From: Nocardioides panacis | GTDB lineage: Bacteria; Actinomycetota; Actinomycetes; Propionibacteriales; Nocardioidaceae | NCBI RefSeq assembly: GCF_019039255.1 | Contig: NZ_CP077062.1 | Span: 248,001-312,000, forward strand | Direction: 5' to 3' | Length of the DNA stretch: 64,000 nucleotides | Part shown: positions 6,252-21,040 of the stretch, in pieces | How the letters are laid out: every line of letters starts with the position of its first letter | How positions within the stretch are numbered: position 1 is the first letter of the stretch | Notes under the pieces: model-generated | What the model saw: only the letters and a program-made list of their open reading frames with translations | What the model was told of the DNA's origin: nothing | Database searches by the model: none | Made by a program: the position numbers and the translations under genes

Positions 6252-6590
6252 TCAGGTGGCGTCGCTGTCGTACGGCGGCAGCTCGCCGTCCTCGAGGGCA
6301 CGGTGGCCGGCCTTCGGGACGGTGCTGCCGGCCTCGTCGTCGGTCTCGTCCCAGGCGTCCTGGATGTACTTCCGCATGGCGCGGCGCGGGTCGAGGTCGG
6401 TGAGCTCGAAGTTCGCGAACTCCGGGCCGAGCTCGGAGCGGATGTCGTCGCGCGCGGTCTGCGTGAAGGTGCGCACCTGGCGGACCAGCCGGCCGGCCTG
6501 GCGGGCGAAGTCCGGGAGCCGATCGGGACCGAACACGACGACGGCCACCACGAGGATGACCATGAGCTCCGGCAGCCCGATCCCGAACAT
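6252..6590 (-). CDS. tatB: Sec-independent protein translocase TatB
   Basis: The 112-aa protein begins with the TatA/B signature: a short N-terminal membrane helix (LPELMVILVVAVVVF), the hinge GPDRLPDFARQAGR, and then an amphipathic helix and an acidic tail. The length and long second helix fit TatB rather than TatA. It belongs to the twin-arginine export machinery. It starts two bases after the mrp stop, so the two genes are co-transcribed, and it faces htrA tail to tail. Confidence 0.92.
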   Translation of the reverse strand: MFGIGLPELMVILVVAVVVFGPDRLPDFARQAGRLVRQVRTFTQTARDDIRSELGPEFANFELTDLDPRRAMRKYIQDAWDETDDEAGSTVPKAGHRALEDGELPPYDSDAT

Positions 6591-6592
6591 GG

Positions 6593-7759
6593 CTACAACC
6601 TACCGGCGGGGCTCAGGCCGAGCTGCAGGCCGGCGAGCCCGCGGCCCCGGCCGGACAGCGTGGCCGCGATCTTCGTGAGGGCCTGCGCCGCCGGGGTGTC
6701 GGGGTGGGTGTCCACGATCGGGGTGCCGGCGTCGCCGCCCTCGCGGAGCGTGAGGTCCAGCGGGATCTCGCCGAGCACCGGCACGTCGTAGCCGAACCGG
6801 CCGGACAGCGTCGCGGCCACCCGCTTGCCGCCGCCGGAGCCGAACACCTCGAGGCGGTGCTCCGGGCCGCAGTGCGGGCAGGGCAGGAAGGACATGTTCT
6901 CCACGACGCCGACGACGCGCTGGTGCATCATCGAGGCCATCGTGCCGGCCCGCTCGGCCACCTCGGCGGCGGCCTCCTGCGGGGTGGTCACCACGACGAC
7001 CTCGGCGTTGGGCAGGTGCTGGCCCAGCGAGATCGCGATGTCCCCGGTGCCCGGTGGCAGGTCGAGGAGCAGCGCGTCGAGGTCGCCCCAGTAGACGTCG
7101 CTGAGCATCTGCACGAGCGCCCGGTCGAGCATCGGGCCGCGCCAGGCGACCACCTGGTCGCGCCGCGGCTTGAGCATCCCGATGCTGATCACCGAGAGCT
7201 GGCCCTCGACGACGCCGGGGGTCGGCACCGGCATGATCATGTCCTCGACCTGGGTCGGGCGGACGTCGCCGAGGCCGAGCATGGCCGGCACGGAGTGGCC
7301 GTAGATGTCGGCGTCCACGATGCCGACCTTGAGGCCCTGCTTGGCCATCGCCGCGGCCAGGTTGACCGTGACCGAGGACTTGCCGACCCCGCCCTTGCCG
7401 GACGCGATCGCGTAGACCTTGGTGAGCGAGTCCGGCTTGCCGAAGGGGATCTCCTTCTGCGCCTGGCCACCGCGGAGTTTCTCCTGCAGGCCGGCGCGCT
7501 GCTCGGCACTCATCACGCCCAGCGTCAGGTCCACCCCGGTGACACCGGGGACCTTGCCGACCGCGCCGGTCACGTCCCGGGTGATCGTGTCCTTCAGGGG
7601 GCAGCCGGAGACGGTCAGCAGCACGGTGACCGCGACCGAGCCGTCGGCGGCGACCACGACGGACTCGACCATGCCGAGGTCCGTGATCGGTCGGCGGATC
7701 TCGGGGTCGTTGACGGTCGCGAGCGCGGCGTTGATCTGCTCGAGATCGGGGGAGGTCAT
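6593..7759 (-). CDS. mrp: Mrp/NBP35 family ATP-binding Fe-S carrier
   Basis: The 388-aa protein has an N-terminal MIP18/DUF59 domain (about residues 5-85) and a P-loop NTPase domain with the deviant Walker A GKGGVGKSS at 121-129. The Mrp signature DLPPGTGDIAISL and a C-terminal CPHC cluster ligand pair (near residue 297) are present. Such proteins bind and hand over Fe-S clusters to apoproteins in the cytosol. The gene lies immediately upstream of tatB on the same strand, as in mycobacteria where both are near sigE. Confidence 0.93.
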   Translation of the reverse strand: MTSPDLEQINAALATVNDPEIRRPITDLGMVESVVVAADGSVAVTVLLTVSGCPLKDTITRDVTGAVGKVPGVTGVDLTLGVMSAEQRAGLQEKLRGGQAQKEIPFGKPDSLTKVYAIASGKGGVGKSSVTVNLAAAMAKQGLKVGIVDADIYGHSVPAMLGLGDVRPTQVEDMIMPVPTPGVVEGQLSVISIGMLKPRRDQVVAWRGPMLDRALVQMLSDVYWGDLDALLLDLPPGTGDIAISLGQHLPNAEVVVVTTPQEAAAEVAERAGTMASMMHQRVVGVVENMSFLPCPHCGPEHRLEVFGSGGGKRVAATLSGRFGYDVPVLGEIPLDLTLREGGDAGTPIVDTHPDTPAAQALTKIAATLSGRGRGLAGLQLGLSPAGRL

Positions 7760-7797
7760 GACTGCCAGCGTACGTGGGCCACCAGCACCGGCAGGGG

Positions 7798-8394
7798 TCA
7801 GGTGTCCCAGTCGGAGTCGTCGTGCTCGTCGGACTCGCGCTGGCGCTGGTCCTCGAGGTCCTGGAGCAGGGAGCGCAGCTCGGAGCGCACGTAGTCACGG
7901 GTGGCGACCTCGCCGAGCGCCATCCGGATCGAGGCCATCTCCCGGGCCAGGAACTCCATGTCGGCGTGCGCCCGGGAGTTCGCCTGCCGGTCCTGCTCGC
8001 CGATCACCCGGTCCCGGTCCTCCTGCCGGTTCTGCGCGAGCAGGATCAGCGGCGCGGCGTACGACGCCTGGAGGCTGAGGATCAGGGTCAGGAAGATGAA
8101 GGCGTACGGGTCGAAGCGCAGGTGCGCCGGGGCCAGGGCGTTCCAGAGCAGCCAGACCGCCACGAAGCCGGTCATGTACATCAGGAACCGGGCGGTGCCC
8201 ATGAAGCGCGCGAACGTCTCGGCGAACCGGCCGAAGGTGTCGGAGTCGACGTTGGGACGCCGGATGATCTGCCGGCGGGTGTCCCGGGGCACGTCGAGCC
8301 GGGGACCGCGGGACTCGCGGTGCGGCTCGCGGCTCCGGTCGCGGCGCCGCTCCTTGCGGGCGTCCTGCCGCTGGCGCGCGGGGGTCCTATCCAC
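7798..8394 (-). CDS. DUF1003 membrane protein
   Basis: The 198-aa protein has a very basic, disordered N-terminus (about 45 residues) and then two membrane helices (FLMYMTGFVAVWLLWNAL and the region around YAFIFLTLILSLQASYAAPL). A charged coiled C-terminus with DMEFLAREMASIR completes the usual DUF1003 layout. The family's function is unknown. Its start overlaps the end of the CBS/MgtE_N gene by 8 bases, so the two are coupled. Confidence 0.88.
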   Translation of the reverse strand: MDRTPARQRQDARKERRRDRSREPHRESRGPRLDVPRDTRRQIIRRPNVDSDTFGRFAETFARFMGTARFLMYMTGFVAVWLLWNALAPAHLRFDPYAFIFLTLILSLQASYAAPLILLAQNRQEDRDRVIGEQDRQANSRAHADMEFLAREMASIRMALGEVATRDYVRSELRSLLQDLEDQRQRESDEHDDSDWDT

Positions 8395-9679
8395 GGCTGC
8401 CCCCCGGGTTGGTCCCGCCGATCCGGACCGGGTTGGCGGGCCGGCCGGGGGTGTCGCGCCAGTTCTCCGGCAGCAGGTGGTCCAGCAGGTCGTCGACCGT
8501 CACGGCGCCGACCAGCCGGCCGTCGTCGTCGACCACCGGCGCCGCGACCAGGTTGTACGTCGCGAGGTGCCGCGCGCAGTCCTCGAGGCTGGACGTCGCG
8601 CGCAGCGGCTCGATGTCGCTGTCCAGGACGTGCCCGACCATCGTGGAGGGCGGCTCGCGCAGCAGTCGCTGGATGTGCGCGACACCGAGCAGGCGACCCG
8701 TCGGGGGCTCGAGCGGCGGCCGGACGACGTACACCAGGGCCGCCAGCGAGGGGCTGAGCTCGACGTTGCGGACGTGCGCGAGGGCGTCGGCGACGGTCGC
8801 GTCGGGGGGCAGGATCACCGGCTCGGTGGTCATCATGCCGCCGGCGGTGTGCTCCTCGTAGGACATCAGCCGCCGGACGTCCTCGGCCTCCTCGGGGTCC
8901 ATCAGCTGCAGCAGCTTCTCGGCGGTCTCCGGGGGCAGCTCGGCGATCAGGTCGGCGGCGTCGTCGGGCGACATCTCCTCGAGGACGTCGGCGGCGCGCT
9001 CGTTGTCCAGGGCGCCGAGGATCTCGACCTGGTCCTCCTCGGGCAGCTCCTCCAGCACGTCGGCGAGCCGCTCGTCGTCGAGGGCGGCGGCGATCTCGGC
9101 CCGCCGCTTGGGGGGCAGGTCGTGGATCACGTTGGCGAGGTCGGCCGGGCGCATCTCGTCGAGCGCGGCGAGCAGGTGCGTCGCGCCCTGCACGCCGTCC
9201 GGGGCGGCGAAGCCCTCCACGTCGCGCCACTCCACGACGTGGGTCTGGCCCTTGCGGCCGAAGCGCTTGGAGCCCTCCTGCAGCGCGACCCGGCTGATCA
9301 CCCAGTCCCGGCTCCGCTCGGGCTCCATCGCCACGTCGTAGACCGACCCGACCACGCCGGTGCCGCGGACCGTCACCTGCCGGTCGAGCATCTGCCCGAA
9401 CACCAGCGTCTCGGTGGGGCGCTGCTCGAAGCGGCGCATGTTCACCACGCCGGTGGTGATCACCTGGCCGCTGTCGACGTGGGTGACCCGGGTCATCGGC
9501 AGGAAGATCGAGCGGCGACCGAACACCTCGACGACCAGGCCGAGGACACGGGGCGGCAGGCCGCCCGGGCGGAGCACCACGACGATGTCGCGGATCTTCC
9601 CGACCTGGTCGCCCGCGGGGTCGAAGACCGGCAGCCCGGACAGGCGGGCCGCGAAGACGCGGGACGGGGAAGTGCTCAC
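8387..9679 (-). CDS. MgtE_N / CBS domain protein with PRC-barrel-like N-terminus
   Basis: The 430-aa protein starts with PRC-barrel-like repeats (GLPVFDPAGDQVGKIRDIVV and a second copy near residue 105). An MgtE intracellular N domain follows (helical repeats with LADVLEELPEED and AADVLEEMSPDDA, about residues 190-270). Two CBS domains end the protein (about 285-400; TAGGMMTTEPV). It lacks the MgtE transporter channel, so it is a soluble relative, perhaps a Mg2+ or nucleotide sensor. M. tuberculosis has a homologue near sigE (Rv1232c). Confidence 0.88.
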   Translation of the reverse strand: MSTSPSRVFAARLSGLPVFDPAGDQVGKIRDIVVVLRPGGLPPRVLGLVVEVFGRRSIFLPMTRVTHVDSGQVITTGVVNMRRFEQRPTETLVFGQMLDRQVTVRGTGVVGSVYDVAMEPERSRDWVISRVALQEGSKRFGRKGQTHVVEWRDVEGFAAPDGVQGATHLLAALDEMRPADLANVIHDLPPKRRAEIAAALDDERLADVLEELPEEDQVEILGALDNERAADVLEEMSPDDAADLIAELPPETAEKLLQLMDPEEAEDVRRLMSYEEHTAGGMMTTEPVILPPDATVADALAHVRNVELSPSLAALVYVVRPPLEPPTGRLLGVAHIQRLLREPPSTMVGHVLDSDIEPLRATSSLEDCARHLATYNLVAAPVVDDDGRLVGAVTVDDLLDHLLPENWRDTPGRPANPVRIGGTNPGGSRG

Positions 9680-9714
9680 GAGTGCTCAGGTTAGCCGCAT
9701 GGAGAATGGCTGCC

Positions 9715-10617
9715 ATGCCACTCACCTTCGACATCGTCGACGTGTTCACCGACCGGCCCTTCGCGGGCAACCAGCTGGCCGTCGTGCACGGCGCCGACGC
9801 GCTCTCGACCGACCAGTGCCAGGCGCTCGCCCGCGAGTTCGGGTTCTCGGAGTCGACGTTCCCGGGTGCGGTCGTCGACGGGCGGGAGTACGCCACCCGG
9901 ATCTTCACCCCCGAGCAGGAGATCCCGTTCGCCGGACACCCGACGCTGGGCACGGCATGGGCGCTGCGCTCGCGGGGCCTGCTCACCGCCGACGAGGCCA
10001 CGCAGGTGTGCGGCGCCGGCCGGATCGGGGTGCGCTTCGACGGCGAGCAGGTCGAGCTGACCGCCGTACCGCGGGACCTGGCGGGGCCGGTGCCGACCGA
10101 CGTGGTCCGGTCGCTGCTGCGGGCGCTCGGGCTGCTGGTGTCCGACATCGCCGGCGAGTCCTGGGTGGCCGGGTGCGGGCTGAGCTTCGTGCACGTGCCG
10201 GTGACCGAGGAGGCGCTGGTGCGGGCGTCCGCGTCCAGCCACGCGTTCCCACCGGTCGCCGAGCGGCTCTCCGGCCTGGGCCGGGTCGAGGACCTGCTGG
10301 ACGCGGTGAACCTGTACGCCGTCGCGGGCAGCTCCCCGCACCTCGACGTGCACAGCCGGGTGTTCGTGCCCGGCGCCGGCGTCCCGGAGGACCCGGCGAC
10401 CGGGTCGGCCGCCGCCGGCCTGGGCCTGGCCCTGGTGGCGACCGGGCTGCTGCCGGAGGGGGGCCGCTACACGATCCGGCAGGGCCTCGAGATGGGCCGC
10501 CCCTCGACGCTGTCCGGACGCGTGGAGGCCACCGGCGGCTCCGCGACGCTGTGCCACGTCGGCGGCCGGGTGCAGCCGGTGGCGTCGGGCGAGATCGCCG
10601 TGCCGCCCGGCTCCTGA
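9715..10617 (+). CDS. PhzF family epimerase/isomerase-like protein
   Basis: The 300-aa protein has the PhzF/diaminopimelate-epimerase-like double fold: the N-terminal DVFTDRPFAGNQLAVV, the catalytic region IPFAGHPTLGTAWAL, and the C-terminal EDPATGSAAAGLG. All three are family signatures. The members' substrates vary and none is evident here. ATG 9715 was chosen for its GGAG about 10 bases upstream; in-frame codons at 9682 and 9706 are poorer. It is divergent from the CBS gene. Confidence 0.9.
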   Translation: MPLTFDIVDVFTDRPFAGNQLAVVHGADALSTDQCQALAREFGFSESTFPGAVVDGREYATRIFTPEQEIPFAGHPTLGTAWALRSRGLLTADEATQVCGAGRIGVRFDGEQVELTAVPRDLAGPVPTDVVRSLLRALGLLVSDIAGESWVAGCGLSFVHVPVTEEALVRASASSHAFPPVAERLSGLGRVEDLLDAVNLYAVAGSSPHLDVHSRVFVPGAGVPEDPATGSAAAGLGLALVATGLLPEGGRYTIRQGLEMGRPSTLSGRVEATGGSATLCHVGGRVQPVASGEIAVPPGS

Positions 10618-10627
10618 GTGCCGGCAG

Positions 10628-11182
10628 TCAGGACAGCTTCGGCCGGCGGGTCACCCGGCGGTGCAGGATCCGGGGCAGCGGGCCGCGGGTGGTCGCCGGC
10701 GACCCGACCGGGGTGGCCCGGTGGTCGGTGTCGGACAGGTCGCCCGGTGCCTCGACCAGCTCGCCGGTGGGCACCACCCGGCGGACCACGCTGGTCCGGG
10801 CCCAGCCGTCGGCGGCCGTGGTCAGGTCCGGGGCGTTCAGCCGGCCGGTCACCAGCGCACCGGTCGCCGGCCCCCAGTGCTCGGACCCCGGCGGTACGAC
10901 GGACGCGGTGCCGACCCACGTGAGCAGCCGGCCGCCGTTGTCCTTGCTGCGCATCACCACCTCGACCCGGGCGCCGTCCGGGAGGTCCGGCAGCGGCTGC
11001 TCGGTGCCGCCGGACACCAGGCACAGGGCGTCCTCGGCCCAGGCGTGCCACACGGCGTGCCACCGCATGGGGACGCCGGGGCCGGCCGCGGGGTCGGGCC
11101 GTAGCCAGCAGACACCGGTCTTCTTCGCGAGCTCGGCGACCAGCGCGGTGCCGAGGGCGGTCCGGTCCGCGTCGTGGCTCAT
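10628..11182 (-). CDS. conserved hypothetical protein, possible FMN/heme-binding split barrel
   Basis: The 184-aa protein begins MSHDADRTALGTALVAELA. Residues 20-110 (CWLRPDPA, HAVWHAWAEDALCLVSGG, RVEVVMRSKDNGGRLLTWVG) recall split-barrel pyridoxamine-phosphate-oxidase-like proteins, but I cannot confirm the family. The basic C-terminal tail (about 30 residues) looks disordered. It is divergent from the EamA transporter gene with only 42 bases between the starts. Confidence 0.6.
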   Translation of the reverse strand: MSHDADRTALGTALVAELAKKTGVCWLRPDPAAGPGVPMRWHAVWHAWAEDALCLVSGGTEQPLPDLPDGARVEVVMRSKDNGGRLLTWVGTASVVPPGSEHWGPATGALVTGRLNAPDLTTAADGWARTSVVRRVVPTGELVEAPGDLSDTDHRATPVGSPATTRGPLPRILHRRVTRRPKLS

Positions 11183-11224
11183 GCCCCTGAGCCTGCCAGA
11201 CGCGCGACCCGGACAATAGGCGCC

Positions 11225-12103
11225 GTGCGCACCCTGCTCCTGCTCGCCGTCGGCGTCGTCGCGGTCTCGCTGTCCGGCCCGCTGATGGCCGCGACGGTCG
11301 TCCCCCCGCTGGCGATCGCGTTCTGGCGCAACGCGTTCGCGACGGTGGCGCTGGGCCCGGGGGTGACGGTCCGGCGCGAGGAGCTCTCCGGACTGCGCGG
11401 CCGACCGCTCGGCCTGGTGGTCGCGAGCGGCGCCGCGCTGGCGCTGCACTTCGGCACCTGGGTCACCTCGCTGACGCTGACGTCGGTCGCGTCGGCCACC
11501 GCGATCGTGTGCCTGCAGCTCGCCTGGGTGGTGGCCTGGCAGCTGCTGCACGGCGAGCGGTTCGGCGTCGGGGTGCTGGCCGGCCTGGTGACCGCGCTGG
11601 TCGGAGTCCTGGTCGTCTCGGGCGTCGACTTCTCGGTGTCCCCGGAGGCGCTGCTCGGCGACCTGCTCGCGCTCGTCGGCGGGGCGGCGGCCGCGGCGTA
11701 CATGCTGATCGGGGCACGGGCCCGTCAGGCGACGTCCACGACGACGTACACCTTCGTCTGCTACGGAACCTGCGCGGCGATCCTGGCGGTGGCCTGCCTG
11801 GTCGCGGGTCAGGACCTGGGCGGCTACCCGCTGCGCCAGTGGGGGCTGCTGCTGCTGGTCACCGCGACCGCGCAGCTGATGGGGCACTCGGTGTTCAACC
11901 ACCTGCTCGCCACCACCAAGCCGATCGTGGTCTCGCTGGCGCTGCTGCTCGAGGTGCCCGGCGCGGCCCTGCTCGCCGCGCTGATCCTCGGCCAGGTCCC
12001 GCCGCTCGGCGCCGCCGTCGGGCTGGTGGTGATCCTGGTCGGGATGGCGCTGGTCGTGGTGAACAACCGGGCGCCCGGCCTCGACGCGGCACCGATGGAC
12101 TGA
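11225..12103 (+). CDS. EamA/DMT-superfamily transporter
   Basis: The 292-aa protein is almost wholly hydrophobic with about ten membrane helices in two EamA repeats. Examples are the N-terminal TLLLLAVGVVAVSLSGPLMA and the second-half VSLALLLEVPGAALLAALIL. It is a drug/metabolite-type permease; the substrate is unknown. The start at GTG 11225 leads straight into the first helix; an upstream in-frame codon at 11174 would add a basic, non-membrane stretch. Confidence 0.88.
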   Translation: MRTLLLLAVGVVAVSLSGPLMAATVVPPLAIAFWRNAFATVALGPGVTVRREELSGLRGRPLGLVVASGAALALHFGTWVTSLTLTSVASATAIVCLQLAWVVAWQLLHGERFGVGVLAGLVTALVGVLVVSGVDFSVSPEALLGDLLALVGGAAAAAYMLIGARARQATSTTTYTFVCYGTCAAILAVACLVAGQDLGGYPLRQWGLLLLVTATAQLMGHSVFNHLLATTKPIVVSLALLLEVPGAALLAALILGQVPPLGAAVGLVVILVGMALVVVNNRAPGLDAAPMD

Positions 12104-12162: not shown

Positions 12163-13125
12163 ATGTCTGCCGCCCGTGAGATCCGTGCCCGTCGCTCCTG
12201 CCACGCCGTCCCCGGCTCCAACCCCCGGTTCCTCGAGAAGGCCCAGGGCCTCGAGTCGGACCAGGTGTTCCTGGACCTCGAGGACTCGGTGGCCCCGATC
12301 GCGAAGCCGGCCGCCCGGGCGAACATCGTCGAGGTGCTGAACACCGGCGAGTGGGGCACCCGGGTGAAGACCGTCCGGGTCAACGACTGGACGACCCAGT
12401 GGACCTACAAGGACGTCATCGAGGTCGTCGAGGGCGCCGGCGCGAACCTCGACTGCCTCATGCTGCCGAAGGTGCAGACCGCCGACCAGGTCAAGGCGCT
12501 CGACGTGCTGCTCACCCAGATCGAGACCGCGATGGGCTACGAGGTCGGCAAGATCGGCATCGAGGCGCAGATCGAGAACGCGCTGGGCCTGATCAACGTC
12601 GACGACATCGCCACCGCGTCCCCGCGCATCGAGACGATCATCTTCGGCCCGGCCGACTTCATGGCCTCGATCAACATGAAGTCGCTGGTCGTCGGCGAGC
12701 AGCCGCCCGGGTACGACGTCGGCGACGCCTACCACTACATCCTGATGCGGCTGCTGATGGCGGCCCGCGCGCACGACCTCCAGGTCATCGACGGGCCCTA
12801 CCTGCAGATCAAGGACCTGGACGGCTACCGCCGGGTCGCCGGCCGCTCCGCCGCCCTCGGCTTCGACGGCAAGTGGACGCTGCACCCCTCGCAGATCGAG
12901 GTCGCCAACGACGTGTACTCCCCGGACCAGGGCGACTACGACCACGCCGAGAACATCCTGGACGCCTACGAGTACTACACCTCCGAGAAGGGCGGCGCGA
13001 AGGGCGCGGTCATGCTCGGCGACGAGATGATCGACGAGGCCTCCCGCAAGATGGCGCTGGTGATCTCCGGCAAGGGCCGCGCCGCCGGGATGTCCCGCGG
13101 CGAGAAGTGGACCCCCGAGGGCTGA
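12163..13125 (+). CDS. HpcH/HpaI aldolase / malyl-CoA lyase-type CoA ester lyase
   Basis: The 320-aa TIM-barrel protein belongs to the CitE/malyl-CoA lyase family: RSCHAVPGSN, the metal-binding FLDLEDSVAP, KIGIEAQIENALGL, the FGPADFM loop and KWTLHPSQIEVAN are all present. In the ethylmalonyl-CoA pathway this type cleaves methylmalyl-CoA and malyl-CoA. The acyl-CoA dehydrogenase (17024) and MaoC gene (20522) would fit the same pathway, although other genes lie between. A strong hairpin follows the stop. The exact substrate is inference. Confidence 0.85.
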   Translation: MSAAREIRARRSCHAVPGSNPRFLEKAQGLESDQVFLDLEDSVAPIAKPAARANIVEVLNTGEWGTRVKTVRVNDWTTQWTYKDVIEVVEGAGANLDCLMLPKVQTADQVKALDVLLTQIETAMGYEVGKIGIEAQIENALGLINVDDIATASPRIETIIFGPADFMASINMKSLVVGEQPPGYDVGDAYHYILMRLLMAARAHDLQVIDGPYLQIKDLDGYRRVAGRSAALGFDGKWTLHPSQIEVANDVYSPDQGDYDHAENILDAYEYYTSEKGGAKGAVMLGDEMIDEASRKMALVISGKGRAAGMSRGEKWTPEG

Positions 13126-13140
13126 CCCTCCGAACGTCAC

Positions 13141-13177
13141 GAACGGCACCGTTCCCCGCCCGGGAGCGGTGCCGTTC
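13141..13177. terminator. hairpin terminator after the CoA ester lyase gene
   Basis: GAACGGCACCG at 13141-13151 pairs perfectly with CGGTGCCGTTC at 13167-13177 around a 15-base loop. It lies between the lyase gene and the converging broken DUF559-like gene, so it may act in both directions. There is no U-tract. Confidence 0.75.
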
Positions 13178-13178
13178 G

Positions 13179-13793
13179 TCACTCTCGGTGCCGGGCGGGC
13201 TCGTGCAGCGACCGCGGTACGTCGCGGTGGTCGAGCACCTCGTCCAGGGTGGGTGGGACCTCCCACCTCGACCGGGCCCGGGCGGCGAGCATCCGCCGGA
13301 CCCCCCGGTCCGTCGACAGCAGGTCGGGGCCGGTCACGCGGAAGACCTCCAGCCCGGCAGCGACGTCGAGCAGGTCCACGATGCCGAGCAACCGCCCGCC
13401 GCGGTCGAAGACCGGCTGGGCTCGCCGGAGTGGTCGAGGGCGGCCGACACCCGTCGTACGCCACGGCTGCCGGCGCGCGTGGCGAGGTAGGCACGCATCC
13501 GGCGCACGGAGACCAGGTCCGCGGCCGCAGCCATCTCCATCGCGCTGGGTGCGCCCGTCGGTGTGCAGGCCGTCGAAGAAGGCGGCCCCGTGCAGGCGGC
13601 ACGCCGCCCATCCGGTCACGGCTCCGCCGGGGGGCAACCGGGCCGCCTGCTCCACGATGCGCTGCTCCGGCAGGTCGTCGTCGGCGGACGCCGGGACGTA
13701 GAGGCCGTGGCTGGACCGGCGCCACGCGCGGCCCCGGGCGGCGCCGCGGGTGGGACCGCTGACCCCGTCCGGGTCGAGGGTGACGGGGTGCAC
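13179..13793 (-). pseudogene. degraded DUF559/AbiEi-like endonuclease-domain gene with internal deletions
   Basis: Nocardioides-type genomes carry many proteins of about 300 aa of this kind (N-terminal winged-helix region, C-terminal vsr-like DUF559 nuclease). Here only about 204 codons remain and the family-like segments fall in alternating frames. First comes SSHGLYVPASADDD to FFDGLHTDG. Then AMEMAAAADLVSVRRMRAYL is read from a second frame (about 13543-13420). Then PVFDRGGRLLGIVDLLDVAA returns to the first frame, joined directly to FRVTGPDLLSTDR with the catalytic part missing. At least two out-of-frame losses and one in-frame loss are implied. The family assignment is from memory of the pattern. 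Confidence 0.65.
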
Positions 13794-13904
13794 GAGTCCC
13801 CGTGGCGGGAGCGCGACCGGGTTCCACCGGTGACGGGGGGTGACGGCAGGCCCGCATGGTGCCTGCCCCGGACCGCAGATGCCTCCGGTCGTCCACAGGC
13901 GCCA

Positions 13905-13961
13905 CGAGTGTCACGTCCGGCCTCTCCCGGGTCGCGGATGTGGTGCCGGACGTGACACTCG
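13905..13961. promoter_or_regulatory. 17-bp perfect inverted repeat upstream of LicD-methyltransferase gene
   Basis: CGAGTGTCACGTCCGGC (13905-13921) and GCCGGACGTGACACTCG (13945-13961) are exact reverse complements separated by 23 bases. The element ends 22 bases before the GTG at 13984, in the gap between two divergent genes, so it is not an ordinary terminator. It could be an operator for a dimeric regulator or a leader hairpin that limits translation. Confidence 0.6.
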
Positions 13962-13983
13962 ACGCTTCCCGTACGATCCCCTC

Positions 13984-15562
13984 GTGTCCACAGCCACCGA
14001 CGTCACCGGCGTGCGCGTCGACGACGAGGGGGTGCGGGCCGGGTCCGCGTCCGAGGTCGTCCTCGACGTGCTGTTCGACGGCCGGCGCATCTGGTCCTTC
14101 TGGCTGCACCGCGACGGCGAGCCGAGCGGTGCCGCCCACCTGGTCCGCTGGCCCTCCGCGCTCCGCCGCTTCCTGCACGGTACGACGCAGGTGCGCGTGG
14201 TCGCGCACGTCAGCGGGGACGTGGTCTACGACGCCGAGGTGCGGCTGGGCGAGCGGGACCAGGAGCGGGCGGACGGCCGGATCGCCGTGGTCAACGACCG
14301 CGGGCTGCCGCTGGGCATCGACAAGTCGCTGCGGCTCGCGCAGACGTTCGACACCCGCAGCGCCGAGCACGTCAAGCCGCTGCTCGACTCGATCGAGGAG
14401 GTGCTGGGAGCCCTCGCGAAGGCCGGCATCGACGCCTTCCCGGCCTACGGCACGCTGCTCGGCGCGGTCCGCGAGGGCCGGCTGATCGGCCACGACAGCG
14501 ACGCCGACCTCGGCTACGTCAGCGACCACACGCACCCGGTCGACGTGGTCCGGGAGTCCTTCCGGCTGCAGCGGGCGCTGGCGGACATGGGCTACCGCAT
14601 CTCCCGCTACAGCGGCGCCGCGTTCAAGGTCGACGTCGCCGAGGCGGACGGGTCCGTGCGGGGGCTCGACGTCTTCGGCGGCTTCCTGGCCGACGGCCAC
14701 CTGCACCTGATGGGCGAGATCCGCACCCCGTTCCGGCGCGAGTGGATCTTCCCCCCTGGGCACCTGCTCGCTGGAGGGCCGCGAGCTCCCGGCCCCCGCG
14801 AACACCGACGAGTTCCTCACCGCGACCTACGGCCCCGGCTGGAAGGTCCCCGACCCGGCGTACAAGTTCGAGACCCCGGAGAGCACGCACCGCCGGCTGA
14901 ACGGCTGGTTCCGGGGCACCCGCGTCAAGCGCGAGAGCTGGGACCGCGCCTACTCCCGGCTGCCCGCCGAGCCGCCGGTCGTCGAGCCCTCCGACTTCGC
15001 GACCTGGGTGGTGGAGCAGGAGGGCGGGGTGCCCCGGCGGGTCGTGGACATCGGCTGCGGCCGGGGCGTCGACGACCTCTGGTTCGCCCGGCAGGGCGCG
15101 CAGGTGATCGGCTTCGACTACGCGCTGCGCGGCAGCCTGCCGGTCGCCGGCCTCGCGGCCGAGGAGGGTGTCGACCTCGAGCTCCGGGACCTGAACCTCT
15201 GCGAGCTCCGCTCGGTGCTGACCGAGGGGGCCCGCGTCGCCCGGCTGCCCGGCCGCACCGTGGTCACGGCGCGGCACGTCGCGGACGCCACCGACAAGGT
15301 CGGCCGCGCGCACCTGTGGCGGGTCTGCGAGATGATGCTCAGCGGCGGCGGCCGGCTGTACGTCGAGTTCGTCAGCCAGCGCGGCGAGGACGACCCGTTC
15401 ACGCGGGACAACCACTTGCGCACGCTGGCGGTGCGCCGGGTGGTCGAGGAGCTCGAGGACCGGGGCGCGACCGTGGTGTCGCGCACGGTGACCGAACACG
15501 AGGGCCCCGACGTCACGACGGGGCACCGGACCGGACGATTGGTGGTCGAATGGCAACGATGA
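13984..15562 (+). CDS. LicD-like nucleotidyltransferase / SAM methyltransferase fusion (frameshifted)
   Basis: After a beta-rich N-terminal domain (about 1-100) comes a LicD-type domain (about 130-270) with AYGTLLGAVREGRLIGHDSD, the HDSDAD metal-binding pattern of the family. A SAM methyltransferase domain follows (motif I VVDIGCGRGVDD at about 350). LicD proteins attach phosphocholine-like groups to surface glycans. The frame breaks at 14751-14756 (six C); five would read WIFPLGTCSLEGRELPAP and give 525 aa, close to the intact 521-aa paralogue at 18498-20063. The stop overlaps the next gene by 13 bases. The substrate is unknown. Confidence 0.75.
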
Positions 15563-15825
15563 AGGCACTGAGCGGGCGCCTCAAGGTCCGCGGCCGGGAG
15601 GCCGCCCGCAACGTCGGGCGGTTCCGGGCCGGGGTGCAGGCCGAGGGGATCGACGCGCTGCGCGACCGGGTCGCGGTCCTAGAGGACGAGGTCCAGGAGT
15701 GCCGCCAGCTCAACCTGCGGCTCGCCGAGCTGACCGACGTGGTCCAGGAGCTGCTGCTGCCGGTGGCCGCGCGGGACGAGCAGCGGATCACCGAGGCCCT
15801 GGAGAAGTACTCGCGGGGACTGTGA
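15550..15825 (+). CDS. small coiled-coil protein, cassette 1
   Basis: The 91-aa protein has a basic N-terminus (KALSGRLKVRGREAARNVGR) and a predicted coiled coil (RDRVAVLEDEVQECRQLNLR then LAELTDVVQELLLPVAARDE). It starts inside the end of the methyltransferase gene. A clear relative (DAVEENRRLNQRLADVVDVV) follows the second LicD-methyltransferase gene at 18244-18501, so the pair is a repeated two-gene unit. It may be a scaffold or partner of the fusion enzyme. No function is known to me. Confidence 0.75.
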   Translation: MATMKALSGRLKVRGREAARNVGRFRAGVQAEGIDALRDRVAVLEDEVQECRQLNLRLAELTDVVQELLLPVAARDEQRITEALEKYSRGL

Positions 15826-15829
15826 CGAG

Positions 15830-16951
15830 GTGGCGCGCACCGTCTACTTCCACGTCGGCCTGCCCAAGACCGGGACGACGTACCTCCAGACCCTGCTGTG
15901 GAACAACGCCGAGGAGCTGCGCCGACAGGGCGTGCTGATGCCGGGCCTCTCGGTCCGCGAGCACCTGTGGGCCAGCGGCGCCGTCCGCGAGGACCCGCGG
16001 CTCGACCGGCGCGGCCCCGAGGCGGCCGGCGCGTGGGACCGGATCGCCGAGGAGATCGTCGCCTGGCCCGGGACGGCCGTGGTCAGCCACGAGTTCTTCG
16101 CGGCTGCGAGCGCGGAGCAGGCCGCGCGGGCGATGCAGCGGCTCGGGGACGCCGAGGTGCACGTGGTCGTGACCGCGCGCGACACGGTCAGCCTGGTGAC
16201 CGCGCGCTGGCAGGAGTTCGTGAAGAACGGCTCCACGGTGCCGATCGACGAGTACCCCACCCGCGAGGAGACCTCCCCGGAGTACGAGTGGGACTGGGGC
16301 ACCCTCGACCTGGCCGACGTGCTCGCCCGGTGGGGCGCCTCGCTGCCGCCCGCGCGCGTGCACGTCCTCACGCTGCCCAAGCCGGGCGCCCCGCGCGACG
16401 AGCTGTGGCTGCGCTTCGCCCGGCTGGTGGGCATCGACCCGGCCGCCTGCGACCCCTCCGGCTCGGTGCAGAACGAGTCCCTGGGCGTCGTCGAGGTCGA
16501 GCTGCTGCGGCGCGTGAACGGCGACCTCGTCGACTTCACCTCCGCGCTCGACCGCGGCAACTGGATCCGCGGCTACCTCGCGCAGGGCAAGCTGGTCCCG
16601 CGCGGCGGCGAGAAGTTCTGGCCGTCGGCGGACCGGGTCGAGGCGCTGCGCGCCCGCGGCGACCGGGCCGTCGACTTCGTGTGCGCGCAGGGGTACGACG
16701 TGATCGGCGACGTCGAGGACCTCCGCACGCCGCGGGTCCTCGGCGAGCGGCGGCACCCCCAGGACGTGACCGACGCCGAGCTGGTCGAGGCGGCCTCCGC
16801 GACCATCGCGGCGATGATGGCCGACGTACGCCAGCTGACCCGGGAGCGGCGCGGGGCCCGCGAGGCCGCCCGCAGCGCCGAGGCCCGCACGCCCCGGGGC
16901 CGGTCCCGCGCCGCGCTCAGACGGGTGCGCCGAATGTGGTCCCGTTCATAG
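15830..16951 (+). CDS. sulfotransferase family protein
   Basis: The 373-aa protein opens with the 5'-phosphosulfate-binding P-loop of sulfotransferases, FHVGLPKTGTTYLQTLLWNN (residues about 7-26). The second, 3'-phosphate-binding, region is VVVTARDTVSLVTARWQEFV at about 110-130. PAPS-dependent transfer of sulfate to a glycan or lipid is the expected reaction. It starts 4 bases after the coiled-coil gene and so belongs to the same transcript as the LicD-methyltransferase. The basic C-terminus (about 35 residues) is low in complexity. Confidence 0.85.
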   Translation: MARTVYFHVGLPKTGTTYLQTLLWNNAEELRRQGVLMPGLSVREHLWASGAVREDPRLDRRGPEAAGAWDRIAEEIVAWPGTAVVSHEFFAAASAEQAARAMQRLGDAEVHVVVTARDTVSLVTARWQEFVKNGSTVPIDEYPTREETSPEYEWDWGTLDLADVLARWGASLPPARVHVLTLPKPGAPRDELWLRFARLVGIDPAACDPSGSVQNESLGVVEVELLRRVNGDLVDFTSALDRGNWIRGYLAQGKLVPRGGEKFWPSADRVEALRARGDRAVDFVCAQGYDVIGDVEDLRTPRVLGERRHPQDVTDAELVEAASATIAAMMADVRQLTRERRGAREAARSAEARTPRGRSRAALRRVRRMWSRS

Positions 16952-17023
16952 CGACCCACGCGGGCATCGGTGATACTCGGCGGTAACCCACCCGCCTGCC
17001 CTGCAGCATGGAAGGACCCCCTG

Positions 17024-18220
17024 ATGGGACGCCTCTGCGAGACCGAGGACCTCACCGACGACCAGTCCGAGATCCTCAAGGCCGTCCGCACGTTCGTGGA
17101 GGACAAGATCCTTCCGGTCGCGACCGAGCTGGAGCACGCGGACGAGTACCCGCAGGAGATCGTCGACGGGCTCAAGGAGCTCGGCATCTTCGGGCTGATG
17201 ATCCCCGAGGAGTACGACGGGCTGGGCGAGTCGCTGCTGACCTACGCGCTGTGCGTGGAGGAGATCGCGCGCGGCTGGATGAGTGTCTCGGGGGTCATCA
17301 ACACGCACTTCATCGTCGCCTACCTGCTGATGCAGCACGGCACCGAGGAGCAGAAGCGGAAGTACCTCCCGCGGATGGCGACCGGCGAGGTGCGCGGCTC
17401 GTTCTCGATGTCGGAGCCCAGCCTCGGCTCGGACGTGTCGGCGATCCGGACCAAGGCGACCCGCACCGAGGACGGCTACGAGATCACCGGCCAGAAGATG
17501 TGGCTGACGAACGGTGGCACCTCGAACCTGGTGGCGGTGCTGGTGAAGACCGACGAGGGTGCCGAGTCGGTCTACAAGAACATGACGACCTTCCTGGTGG
17601 AGAAGGAGACCGGCTTCGGCGAGACCGCGCAGGGCCTCACCATCCCCGGCAAGATCGACAAGATGGGCTACAAGGGCGTCGACACCACCGAGGCGATCTT
17701 CGAGGGGCACCGGATCTCCGCCGACCAGGTGCTGGGCGGCGAGCCGGGCAAGGGCTTCTACCAGATGATGGACGGCGTCGAGGTGGGCCGCGTCAACGTC
17801 GCGGCCCGGGCCTGCGGGATCGCCAACCGGGCCTTCGAGCTGGGCATCTCCTACGCCCAGCAGCGGGAGACGTTCGGCAAGAAGATCGCCGAGCACCAGG
17901 CGATCCTGTTCCGCCTGGCCGAGATGGCGACCAAGGTCGAGACCGCGCACGCGATGATGGTCCGGGCCGCCCGGCTCAAGGACAAGGGCCAGCGCAACGA
18001 CGTCGAGGCCGGGATGGCGAAGATGCTGGCGGCGGAGTACTGCAACGAGGTGGTCCAGGACTCGTTCCGGATCCACGGCGGATACGGCTACTCCAAGGAG
18101 TACGAGATCGAGCGGCTCTACCGCGAGGCCGCGTTCATGCTGATCGGCGAGGGCACCGCCGACGTCCAGAAGATGATCATCGGCCGCAGCCTGCTCAAGG
18201 AGTACAAGCTCAAGGGCTGA
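17024..18220 (+). CDS. acyl-CoA dehydrogenase
   Basis: The 398-aa FAD enzyme is complete: FSMSEPSLGSDVSAI (FAD-binding signature 1), then GRVNVAARACGIANRAFELG and RETFGKKIAEHQAILF, and the C-terminal signature QDSFRIHGGYGYSKEYEIER with the region of the catalytic glutamate. ATG 17024 has GGAAGGA about 8 bases upstream. Its neighbours in other genomes with a malyl-CoA lyase and this MaoC type suggest a (2S)-methylsuccinyl-CoA dehydrogenase-like role in the ethylmalonyl-CoA pathway, but a short-chain or general dehydrogenase is equally possible. Confidence 0.9.
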   Translation: MGRLCETEDLTDDQSEILKAVRTFVEDKILPVATELEHADEYPQEIVDGLKELGIFGLMIPEEYDGLGESLLTYALCVEEIARGWMSVSGVINTHFIVAYLLMQHGTEEQKRKYLPRMATGEVRGSFSMSEPSLGSDVSAIRTKATRTEDGYEITGQKMWLTNGGTSNLVAVLVKTDEGAESVYKNMTTFLVEKETGFGETAQGLTIPGKIDKMGYKGVDTTEAIFEGHRISADQVLGGEPGKGFYQMMDGVEVGRVNVAARACGIANRAFELGISYAQQRETFGKKIAEHQAILFRLAEMATKVETAHAMMVRAARLKDKGQRNDVEAGMAKMLAAEYCNEVVQDSFRIHGGYGYSKEYEIERLYREAAFMLIGEGTADVQKMIIGRSLLKEYKLKG

Positions 18221-18243
18221 CCCCGGCTCCGCCGGTGGGTGGG

Positions 18244-18501
18244 TCAGCCCTCGTCGAGGGTCTTGTTCAGGTTGGCCAGCGCCGCGGCGACCCGGGCGTC
18301 GTCGCGGTCCAGGGCCGGCACGAGCAGCTCGGTGACCACGTCGACGACGTCGGCGAGCCGCTGGTTGAGCCGGCGGTTCTCCTCGACGGCGTCCTCCAGC
18401 GCGGCGACGCGGGCGACCAGGCCGGGGGAGTGGACGTGGCCCTGCGCCCCGTCGGGCGGGGCCGGCTCGGTGCGGCGCAGCCGGGACAGCAGTCTGCTCA
18501 T
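18244..18501 (-). CDS. small coiled-coil protein, cassette 2
   Basis: The 85-aa protein has a basic N-terminus (MSRLLSRLRRTEP) and a coiled coil (RVAALEDAVEENRRLNQRLA followed by DVVDVVTELLVPALDRDDAR). It is the counterpart of the 15550-15825 product: both carry the leucine/valine heptads with a RxxxLN core and the TELLVPALDRD/QELLLPVAARD segment. Its ATG overlaps the stop of the upstream LicD-methyltransferase gene (ATGA), so both are translated together. Confidence 0.75.
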   Translation of the reverse strand: MSRLLSRLRRTEPAPPDGAQGHVHSPGLVARVAALEDAVEENRRLNQRLADVVDVVTELLVPALDRDDARVAAALANLNKTLDEG

Positions 18502-20063
18502 GGGGTCCACCTCACGACGATTCGGGCGATGTGCGGGTTCTCGGTGCCGAGCGGGGCCAGGCCCCGGCCGGTCTCGCGGTGCACGACGGTGCCACCGTAG
18601 GCCGCCACCTCGCGGGCGACGAGGTCCGGGTCGACGTACTCCCGCAGGTGCACGCCGAAGTGCTTGGGCTCCTGGCGGGACTGCGGGGTGCGGAACTCCA
18701 GGAAGGTCTCGCCGCCGCGGCGCTGCACCATCGAGGCGAACCGCCAGAAGTTGTCGCGCCCGACCGGTCCGAGGGTGTCGAGCAGCCCGCGGGCGTAGAC
18801 CTCGCGGACGCCGCCGCGGTGCGCGAACCGGGTGCCGGTGACCAGGACCGAGCGCAGGTCCTCGAAGTTCATCGACCGCACGGTCACGCGGCCGGCCGCG
18901 TCCTCGCGCAGCTTCTTGGTCTGCCGCATGCCCAGCGTGGAGAAGTCCAGGGCGACCACGCGGTGACCCTGCCCGGCGAAGTACGCCGTGTCGCGACCGG
19001 TGCCGGCGCCGGCGTCGAGCACGGTGCCGTCGCCGCGGCCGGCGGTGACCAGCCGCTGCTGGGTCCAGTGGGCGAAGGAGGACGGCTCGGTGGGCACCCG
19101 GGTGGCGTCGGGGCTCTTGTAGAAGTCGTGCCAGAAGCGCAGCCGACGGCGCGGGCCGCGGAACCAGGCGTCCATGCGCGCCACGTCGACCGGGTCGTGG
19201 TCGAAGTGGAAGGCCGGGTCCGGGACGCGCCAGTGCGGGCCGTAGGTGAAGGCGAGCACCTCCTCGGGCCGTGCCGGGGCGGTGATCTCGCGCCCCTCCA
19301 GGGTGACCGTCCCGAACGGCAGCAGGGCCGAGCGGTCCAGGGGACCGGTCAGCGAGCCGGTGACGTAGAACCGGTCGCCGATGTGGAACGAGCCGAACAC
19401 GTCGATGCCGCAGCGGCGGCCGTCCGGGAGCGGCACCCAGACCTTGAAGTTCGCGCCGGACATCTTCACGACCTTCCAGCCCAGCGCCTTCATCCGGCGG
19501 ATCGCGGCCGTGCACTCGCGGATGATGTCGAAGGGGTGGGTGTGCGCGGACAGGTAGGCGACGTCGGCGTCCGAGTCGTGCCCGATCATGTGGCCGTCCC
19601 GGATCGCGCCGAGCAGGCAGCCGTACATCAGGTAGGTGTCCAGGCCGCACTCGACGGTCAGGTCGTGCATGACCTTCTCAAGCGCGTCCATGATCTCGTC
19701 GCGGGCGGAGTCCTCGGTGTTGCTGAAGTCGCGCTGCAGCCGGCCGCCCTTGTCCACCGCCAGCGGGTTGCCCTCGGCGTCGACCACGCCGACCCGGCCC
19801 TCGCCCCGGCCGAAGCGGACGGTCTGGGTGTGCAGGACGTCGCGGCTCACGTGGTCCACGAGCTCGACGTCGGCGACCCCCTCGAGGTGCTGCACCAACG
19901 CCTTGGGCCAGGCCACCTCGCGGGTGTCCTCGCTCCCGGCCCTGCCGTCGCGGTCGGGGTTGAACGACCAGACCCGCTGACCGTCGAGGAGCACGTCGAT
20001 GGCGCCCGAGCAGGAGCCGGGAACGACCAGACCCCGCGTGTCGACATCGATTCCGCGTGCCAC
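18498..20063 (-). CDS. LicD-like nucleotidyltransferase / SAM methyltransferase fusion (intact paralogue)
   Basis: This intact 521-aa protein has the same three parts as the 13984 gene: a beta-rich N-terminal domain (1-100, VLLDGQRVWSFN), a LicD-type domain (about 125-275) with YGCLLGAIRDGHMIGHDSDA, and a class I methyltransferase domain (about 345-521; TVLDAGAGTGRDTAYFAGQG). The GTG start has AGGAGG six bases upstream. The combination suggests an enzyme that both transfers and methylates a phospho-base on a surface polymer. It faces the first cassette across the acyl-CoA dehydrogenase gene. The substrate is inference. Confidence 0.8.
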   Translation of the reverse strand: MARGIDVDTRGLVVPGSCSGAIDVLLDGQRVWSFNPDRDGRAGSEDTREVAWPKALVQHLEGVADVELVDHVSRDVLHTQTVRFGRGEGRVGVVDAEGNPLAVDKGGRLQRDFSNTEDSARDEIMDALEKVMHDLTVECGLDTYLMYGCLLGAIRDGHMIGHDSDADVAYLSAHTHPFDIIRECTAAIRRMKALGWKVVKMSGANFKVWVPLPDGRRCGIDVFGSFHIGDRFYVTGSLTGPLDRSALLPFGTVTLEGREITAPARPEEVLAFTYGPHWRVPDPAFHFDHDPVDVARMDAWFRGPRRRLRFWHDFYKSPDATRVPTEPSSFAHWTQQRLVTAGRGDGTVLDAGAGTGRDTAYFAGQGHRVVALDFSTLGMRQTKKLREDAAGRVTVRSMNFEDLRSVLVTGTRFAHRGGVREVYARGLLDTLGPVGRDNFWRFASMVQRRGGETFLEFRTPQSRQEPKHFGVHLREYVDPDLVAREVAAYGGTVVHRETGRGLAPLGTENPHIARIVVRWTP

Positions 20064-20521: not shown

Positions 20522-21040
20522 ATGCAGTTCGGCCGGAGCTACGAGGAGTTCGAGGTCGGTGCGACGTACAAGCACTGGCCGGGCAAGACGGTCACGGAGT
20601 ACGACGACCACCTGTTCTGCCTGCTGACCATGAACCACCACCCGCTGCACCTCGACGCGAACTACGCCGGGAGCAGCACCCAGTTCGCCAAGAACGTCGT
20701 GGTCGGCAACTACGTCTACTCGCTGCTGCTGGGGATGAGCGTCCCCGACGTGTCCGGCAAGGCGATCGCGAACCTCGAGGTCGAGTCGCTCAAGCACGTC
20801 GCACCGACCTTCCACGGCGACACGATCTACGGCCAGACCGAGGTCCTCGACAAGTGGGAGTCGAAGTCCAAGGACGACCGGGGCGTGGTCCACGTCGAGA
20901 CGAAGGGCTACAACCAGGACGGCACGCTGGTGTGCATCTTCCGCCGCAAGGTGATGGTGCCCAAGCAGTCCTACCTCGACGCCCGCGGCGGCGAGCAGCC
21001 GGGCCGTCCGGAGCTCGTGGAGCCCGAGCCGAAGGCCTGA
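20522..21040 (+). CDS. MaoC family dehydratase
   Basis: The 172-aa single hot-dog protein begins GRSYEEFEVGATYKHWPGKT and contains the hydratase-2 motif as TMNHHPLHLDANYA (catalytic Asp/His region at about residues 37-50). This subtype usually accompanies ccr, ecm and malyl-CoA lyase genes in actinobacteria and is then thought to act as mesaconyl-CoA hydratase; here those partners are partly 3-8 kb away (12163, 17024) and ccr/ecm are not in the window. A GAGGAG site precedes the ATG. Confidence 0.85.
   Translation: MQFGRSYEEFEVGATYKHWPGKTVTEYDDHLFCLLTMNHHPLHLDANYAGSSTQFAKNVVVGNYVYSLLLGMSVPDVSGKAIANLEVESLKHVAPTFHGDTIYGQTEVLDKWESKSKDDRGVVHVETKGYNQDGTLVCIFRRKVMVPKQSYLDARGGEQPGRPELVEPEPKA

Follow-up and report, generated by a model that had tools for sequence, protein, structure and literature searches.

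The window analysed here is a 64,000-nucleotide stretch of the Nocardioides panacis genome (contig NZ_CP077062.1, positions 248,001 to 312,000 of the forward strand). The genome around it measures 4.9 Mb in one contig, and its relatives in our tree are Nocardioidaceae. The window carries two facing cassettes, in each of which sequence for a LicD-type domain and an S-adenosylmethionine (SAM) methyltransferase is followed by a gene for a small protein. Copy 2, on the minus strand, has an intact fusion gene (18498-20063), a single open reading frame (ORF) of 521 codons (521 aa). Its N-domain lies at about 19728-20063, its LicD/FKRP-type domain at about 19155-19727 and its class I SAM methyltransferase at about 18501-19154, with limits that we set on the alignment A2. 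Against Pfam, copy 2 matches LicD (PF04991) with 24.3 bits (cut-off 22.6) and Methyltransf_25 with 29.4 bits (cut-off 27). The conserved VLDAGAGTGRD in the alignment (residues 348-358; 18990-19022, minus strand) is the SAM-binding motif I of copy 2. The partner gene (18244-18501, minus strand) encodes 85 aa, scores 70.1 bits against Pfam PF20537 (cut-off 27), and its ATG overlaps the stop of the fusion by 4 nucleotides (18501/18498).

Copy 1, on the plus strand, is built in the same order. Its N-domain and LicD part (13984-14752) are translated in their own frame, and its methyltransferase part (14753-15562) is found in another frame by third-position GC and a methyltransferase motif. The partner (15550-15825, plus strand; 91 aa) scores 91.0 bits against PF20537, and a second ATG at 15559 gives a 4-nucleotide overlap with the stop of the methyltransferase frame. 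A preliminary description of this DNA had given this two-gene order for both sites, with partners of 85 and 91 aa, and the translations and Pfam scores agree with it. The HDSDAD motif that it named is located at residues 162-167 of copy 2 (19563-19580, minus strand) in the HMMER alignment to FKRP.

Frame change in copy 1

The preliminary description had claimed a LicD-methyltransferase fusion at both sites. This holds for copy 2, but copy 1 is frameshifted, which had been missed together with the named family of the small protein. The reading frame changes in a run of C at 14751-14757 on the plus strand, as seen both in the translations and in GC counted for each codon position, so copy 1 is not one protein in the present sequence. 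The 661-codon ORF at 13840-15825 therefore joins mismatched pieces, namely the N-domain and LicD part, out-of-frame residues and the coiled coil of the partner. The N-domain and LicD piece is 81-86% identical to three orthologues and the methyltransferase piece 70-74%. The LicD part of copy 1 reaches 18.0 bits in Pfam, under the cut-off of 22.6, and its methyltransferase part matches methyltransferase families, all under the curated cut-offs.

In relatives, the fusion gene is read in one frame. We called 81 members of 490-546 aa in the named loci, that is, 78 loci from the best 80 of 334 relatives (in L093 and L098 no fusion gene was called), and the full-length fusion places in the family-genome search have no internal stop. 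A few shorter calls, some of them at contig ends, lie outside this statement. This single frame in relatives led us to reject programmed frameshifting as an explanation for copy 1. The frame change could be either a recent mutation or a homopolymer sequence error. Compared with the orthologue in L058, dN/dS (NG86) was 0.117/0.536 and 0.196/0.520 for the two pieces of copy 1 and 0.182/0.55 for copy 2, values that show past constraint and do not date the frameshift.

The fusion enzyme and its DUF6752 partner

The LicD sub-profile A4 had FKRP as its sole match in PDB (E 2.5e-11), over residues 284-437 of the 455 residues of FKRP. In the HMMER alignment, D163, D165, D167 and D221 of copy 2 (codon of D221 at 19401-19403, minus strand) stand opposite D360, D362, D364 and D416 of FKRP, and they are aspartate in 68/69, 69/69, 69/69 and 69/69 members, respectively. 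FKRP D362, D364 and D416 are reported to be essential, and D360 too (PMC6965139). All of the 69 members of A2 match PF04991 at E<=0.01, the curated cut-off having been applied to copies 1 and 2 alone.

Class I SAM methyltransferases are marked by the glycines of motif I and by an acidic residue after strand 2. In the fusion, G352, G354 and D358 of the SAM motif are present in 69/69 members and G356 in 64/69, and position 373 is D in 66/69 and E in 3/69. The preliminary description had made its proposal depend on active-site residues in both domains, and judged by sequence they are kept (LicD aspartates in 68-69 of 69 members; G352, G354 and D358 in all). It had also proposed a beta-rich N-domain. 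A crude propensity profile does show some strands there, but the N-domain has no convincing Pfam or PDB relative: its Pfam hits are scattered over single members, and the two PDB hits of its profile have E 0.47 and 1.8.

The methyltransferase and LicD-type proteins are separate, abutting genes in two genomes of another genus (G037 and G056), so the two activities are linked even when unfused. Remote LicD-methyltransferase fusions without DUF6752 were seen in two genomes of another family (L176:8664-10388 and L177:8996-10573), near mazG-like and enolase-like genes (named by eye). These arrangements bear on whether one catalytic part has been misnamed, in that the methyltransferase has an unrelated substrate or is regulatory, or that the LicD part is a CpsC-like polymerase. 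The methyltransferase part is the less conserved one, with a mean identity to P0001 of 38% vs 49% for the LicD part. CpsC is reported to be a LicD-family polyol-phosphate polymerase that takes cytidine diphosphate (CDP) conjugates as donors (PMC11666461). Against such a misnaming, the SAM motif is invariant at key positions, and distant genomes keep the two domains either in one protein or in adjacent genes. We regard this explanation as quite unlikely.

Both small proteins belong to the Pfam family DUF6752 (PF20537), a family without function that is not named in the open-licence literature searched. They are more than chance ORFs, because their scores lie far above the 27-bit cut-off. Of the seven heptad registers tried on the DUF6752 core, the best one has 73% hydrophobic residues at positions a and d vs 36% at the other positions (71% vs 37% in the next), which is in keeping with a short coiled coil of some 30-35 residues.

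The pairing of the two genes is nearly constant. A search of the family draw at E<=0.001 reached 46 of 61 genomes, many through short methyltransferase matches. We counted fusion matches with E below 1e-30, dropped weaker rows and three stand-alone methyltransferase matches (G058:C7:1741, G011:C4:48323 and G050:C4:296067), and took the two coordinate pieces of copy 1 in the window as one row. Counted in this way, the fusion and DUF6752 are each present in 32 of the 61 genomes, and these are the identical 32. Among 51 fusion places, DUF6752 lies on the same strand within 300 bases downstream in 33 and within 4 kb in 14 more; the others have it on the opposite strand (1), far away (1) or not on the contig (2). 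Three of 50 DUF6752 hits have no fusion on their own contig. In a class-wide draw of 196 genomes, which shares some genomes with the family draw, 15 hold the fusion (E<=1e-20) and 13 hold DUF6752, and 13/13 of the latter have both; the two fusion genomes without DUF6752 (G104 and G128) are remote matches.

A similar result was obtained for the 78 named loci, which were searched with a DUF6752 model made from the members in these loci themselves; a locus was counted if any of its fusion genes has a partner near. DUF6752 lies on the same strand within 1 kb of a fusion in 71 loci and within 3 kb in 5, that is, in 76/78. In the two loci without it, L129 and L148, the contig ends 311 and 3 bases past the fusion. 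Thirty-four of the 71 adjacent pairs overlap by 4 nucleotides, with starts taken from our gene caller. The preliminary description had named conservation of the coiled-coil gene beside the fusion as the point on which its proposal could fall, and the gene is conserved there. In G136, from another family, the fusion ORF itself has at its C-terminus a coil resembling DUF6752, which with 23.4 bits stays under the cut-off of 27. The evolutionary distances of the fusion and DUF6752 correlate (Mantel r 0.76, whereas none of 2000 permutations exceeded 0.16), which fits co-inheritance of the two and is no proof of contact.

Glycan context and the proposed function

Within stretches of up to 10 kb on each side, nucleotidyltransferases of CDP-forming type were found in 44 of the 78 named loci. 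A TagD/PCYT2-like cytidylyltransferase is present in 31 loci, where the layouts place it immediately upstream of a fusion gene. The neighbours in nine loci are related to a protein that matches CTP:inositol-1-phosphate cytidylyltransferase best in PDB (8e-5, a weak match), and those in four loci to one that matches LicC best (1.8e-12). In its best single stretch, the TagD-type neighbour matches TagD with 36.6 bits vs 33.6 for ethanolamine-phosphate cytidylyltransferase. The fusion of G136 adjoins an IspD-SDR protein that reaches 175 against the NCBIfam model for D-ribitol-5-phosphate cytidylyltransferase (cut-off 166). Because of the CDP-forming-type neighbours and this ribitol-type cytidylyltransferase, a CDP-activated alcohol is well supported by context as the putative donor, and choline or ethanolamine is no more likely than a polyol. 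Polyol-using members of the LicD family are known, CpsC among them (PMC11666461).

In L096 and L097 (about 6400-11540), a TagD-type gene is followed by three tandem fusion genes, and a single DUF6752 was called between these. A second TagD-type gene of the own genome (L182:9150-9551, about 81.1 kb) lies beside CDP-alcohol-phosphotransferase-like and flippase-like genes (named by eye).

Genes of glycan assembly and export occur near some of the fusions. G136 has TagGH/Wzm-Wzt-like exporter genes a few kb from the fusion, below the curated cut-offs, and relatives of this exporter are found in 4 of the 78 named loci; by looser clustering, ATP-binding cassette (ABC) ATPases are found in 8. Relatives of a GlfT2-like glycosyltransferase, of a glycerol-1-phosphate-dehydrogenase-like protein (the tested relative has 245 bits, under the cut-off of 413) and of the G136 exporter accompany the fusion in the four LicC-type loci. 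In L124, L130, L140 and L145, the fusion, DUF6752, LicC-type, glycerol-1-phosphate-dehydrogenase-like, GlfT2-like and exporter genes were seen together. No glycan ABC exporter was recognised around the cassettes of the window, where no search with the G136 exporter was made. The own genome has four matches to PF04464 (TagB/TagF type), three strong and one partial; a polyol-phosphate polymer is therefore plausible, and the matches suggest that this genome may be able to make such polymers.

Taken together, we consider it rather probable that the fusion is a CDP-dependent phospho-alcohol transferase and methyltransferase with a coiled-coil partner, which decorates or caps a wall glycan. For the substrate, the sequence and location of the reactions and the part played by DUF6752, we infer the following. 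A cytidylyltransferase would make the CDP carrier, from which the LicD/FKRP-type domain would take an alcohol phosphate, most likely of a polyol such as ribitol or glycerol, and attach it, in the cytoplasm, to a glycan destined for the cell surface. Methylation of the added group or the adjoining glycan by the fused SAM methyltransferase would come next. The short coiled coil of DUF6752, probably translated from the same mRNA as the fusion, may oligomerise or place the enzyme. The glycan may also be a substrate of the sulfotransferase-like enzyme that about one in three relatives has.

The preliminary description had also proposed surface-glycan decoration, with a phospho-base that is transferred and methylated. 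The decoration agrees with the CDP-forming-type neighbours in 44/78 loci and with the exporter and glycosyltransferase genes in a few, and the phospho-base is one of several options. LicD is the transferase family of lic1, a system in which phosphocholine is transferred with LicA/B/C genes. A lic1-like system would place phosphocholine or phosphoethanolamine from a CDP carrier on the glycan, where the amine would be N-methylated. The LicD family itself, the LicC-related neighbour in 4/78 loci and the match of the TagD-type neighbour to PCYT2 all agree with it, and the fusion profile also hits phosphoethanolamine N-methyltransferases in PDB (1.2e-5), though well below many other class I methyltransferases. 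However, the sole solved relative of the LicD part is the polyol enzyme FKRP, the one-ORF case of G136 adjoins a protein of CDP-ribitol-synthase type, and all four LicC-type loci also hold the glycerol-1-phosphate-dehydrogenase relative. We consider a phospho-base unlikely.

As a special case of decoration with a phospho-alcohol, the methylated phospho-group could cap the glycan and stop its growth. Here the FKRP-like domain would add a phospho-polyol, which would be methylated and end the chain, and DUF6752 would tether this enzyme to the membrane or polymerase. WbdD is reported to unite a phosphorylating activity, one that methylates the phosphate, and a coiled coil (PMC3482155, PMC11231755). 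A phosphotransferase, a methyltransferase and a coiled coil are tied here too, once in one ORF (G136) with an ABC exporter a few kb off, and by analogy it is possible that the fusion works like a WbdD terminator. On the other side, the coil of DUF6752, with some 30-35 residues, is too short for a ruler, and relatives of the G136 exporter, as counted above, are present in just four loci. Moreover, P0001, P0003 and P0004 have no kinase match in Pfam or NCBIfam up to E 1, so the fusion is not a member of WbdD. Chain termination of this kind seems improbable to us. These explanations overlap, and their likelihoods are not meant to add up to one.

Several observations weigh against a CDP-dependent transferase acting on wall glycan. 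By whole sequence, the TagD-type neighbour matches ethanolamine-phosphate cytidylyltransferase best in PDB (5e-15, in two stretches), ahead of TagD (3.5e-8), and the layouts of the TagD-type loci show no further recognised glycan gene. GlmU-like neighbours occur in 8 loci and Prs-like ones in 7 (named by eye). No cytidylyltransferase was recognised beside the two cassettes of the window, the inositol-type neighbour used as a query gave no match in the own genome, and the nearest TagD-type gene of this genome sits by the third paralogue. The LicD match is weak for single sequences, with copy 1 under the Pfam cut-off, and a genome search with PF04991 at E<=0.01 matched copies 1 and 2 and did not match the third paralogue. 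As for the partner, the unfused pair of G037 and G056 has no DUF6752 hit, and the remote G104 and G128 carry both domains without DUF6752.

Adjoining genes, paralogue history and comparison with known systems

A sulfotransferase after copy 1 had been named in the preliminary description. There is a gene at this place (15830-16951, plus strand), whose 373-aa product P0006 has a GLPKTGTT loop, which we take to be the motif binding 3'-phosphoadenosine-5'-phosphosulfate (PAPS), but the name is weakly supported (Sulfotransfer_3 with E 0.04, below cut-off). Four of 28 relatives of P0006 match Sulfotransfer_3 at E<=0.01, and the profile of this family found no sulfotransferase in PDB, its sole hit being a 25-residue match to m4D2. 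A P0006-like gene is present in 26 of the 78 named loci, so the suggested sulfation would be optional.

Between the cassettes lies an acyl-CoA dehydrogenase (17024-18220, plus strand; recognised by Pfam) that recurs in 21/78 loci; it is a conserved neighbour and is not thought to be part of the system. An HpcH/HpaI lyase (12163-13125), this dehydrogenase and a mesaconyl-CoA-hydratase-like MaoC (20522-21040) flank and separate the cassettes, and their order recurs in several relatives, though the genes look metabolic. An inverted repeat of 27 nucleotides with 85% complementarity and a 5-nucleotide loop lies just past the HpcH/HpaI gene (13130-13188), perhaps a terminator without a T run. The scan for promoters and terminators found no site.

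The repeats between the two cassettes mirror their paralogy, and a third paralogue with its own DUF6752 is located at 1.20 Mb of the same genome. The tree was built from 71 rows, with genes of at least 480 aa and their first 300-320 residues only; the TagD-type sample comprised 12 of 31 members at random and the own third paralogue. The copy-1 clade (16 rows, 100/100) stands apart from the copy-2 clade (12 rows, 100/98), which falls towards the TagD-type clade (99/96). In the layouts, a facing fusion pair around the acyl-CoA dehydrogenase occurs in 11 of the 78 loci (L077, L079-L085, L087, L088 and L094). These pairs are not orthologous throughout: the second fusion of L088 falls outside the copy-2 clade and the first of L083 outside the copy-1 clade, and the second of L085 was too short for the tree. 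Because of the separate clades and the facing pairs in relatives, the duplication is older than these species, an old duplication being one of the two origins that the preliminary description had considered. L103, on a contig labelled Acidobacteriaceae, groups with Gordonia (100/100) and is probably mis-binned.

The single families are known, and within the reach of our searches their combination of LicD, methyltransferase and DUF6752 seems to be undescribed, as had been presumed. The open-licence literature held nothing on LicD and methyltransferase combined with sulfotransferase, cytidylyltransferase or glycerol phosphate, and, by titles and the beginnings of abstracts, the open-licence papers on the Nocardioides wall held nothing on the subject. 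If phospho-alcohol decoration is true, many Nocardioidaceae and some Gordonia and Pseudonocardiaceae would bear an unrecognised methylated phospho-modification of their wall glycans. It would give DUF6752 its first functional setting and would represent a bacterial joining of a muscular-dystrophy-related phosphotransferase fold with a methyltransferase. If the group is a cap, the old facing cassettes would make two different caps in one cell.

The small proteins are members of DUF6752, which is here tied to the LicD-methyltransferase fusion. Compared with known systems, the fusion resembles the human ribitol-phosphate transferases FKRP and fukutin in its LicD-type domain of nucleotidyltransferase fold with the same four aspartates, a domain that is C-terminal in FKRP. 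It differs from FKRP, which, as matched, has no methyltransferase or DUF6752 and which acts on the glycan of dystroglycan (PMC6965139). The lic1 LicD and CpsC share with it the Pfam LicD family and CDP-conjugate donors (PMC11666461); in what was compared, they have no fused methyltransferase, and CpsC has an N-terminal tetratricopeptide repeat (TPR) domain. The WbdD-type terminators of E. coli O9a and of K. pneumoniae O3 and O7 likewise bring phospho-group addition, methylation and a coiled coil into one system. In these, however, an ATP-dependent kinase takes the place of the LicD domain, and a long coiled-coil ruler lies in the same chain (PMC3482155, PMC11231755).

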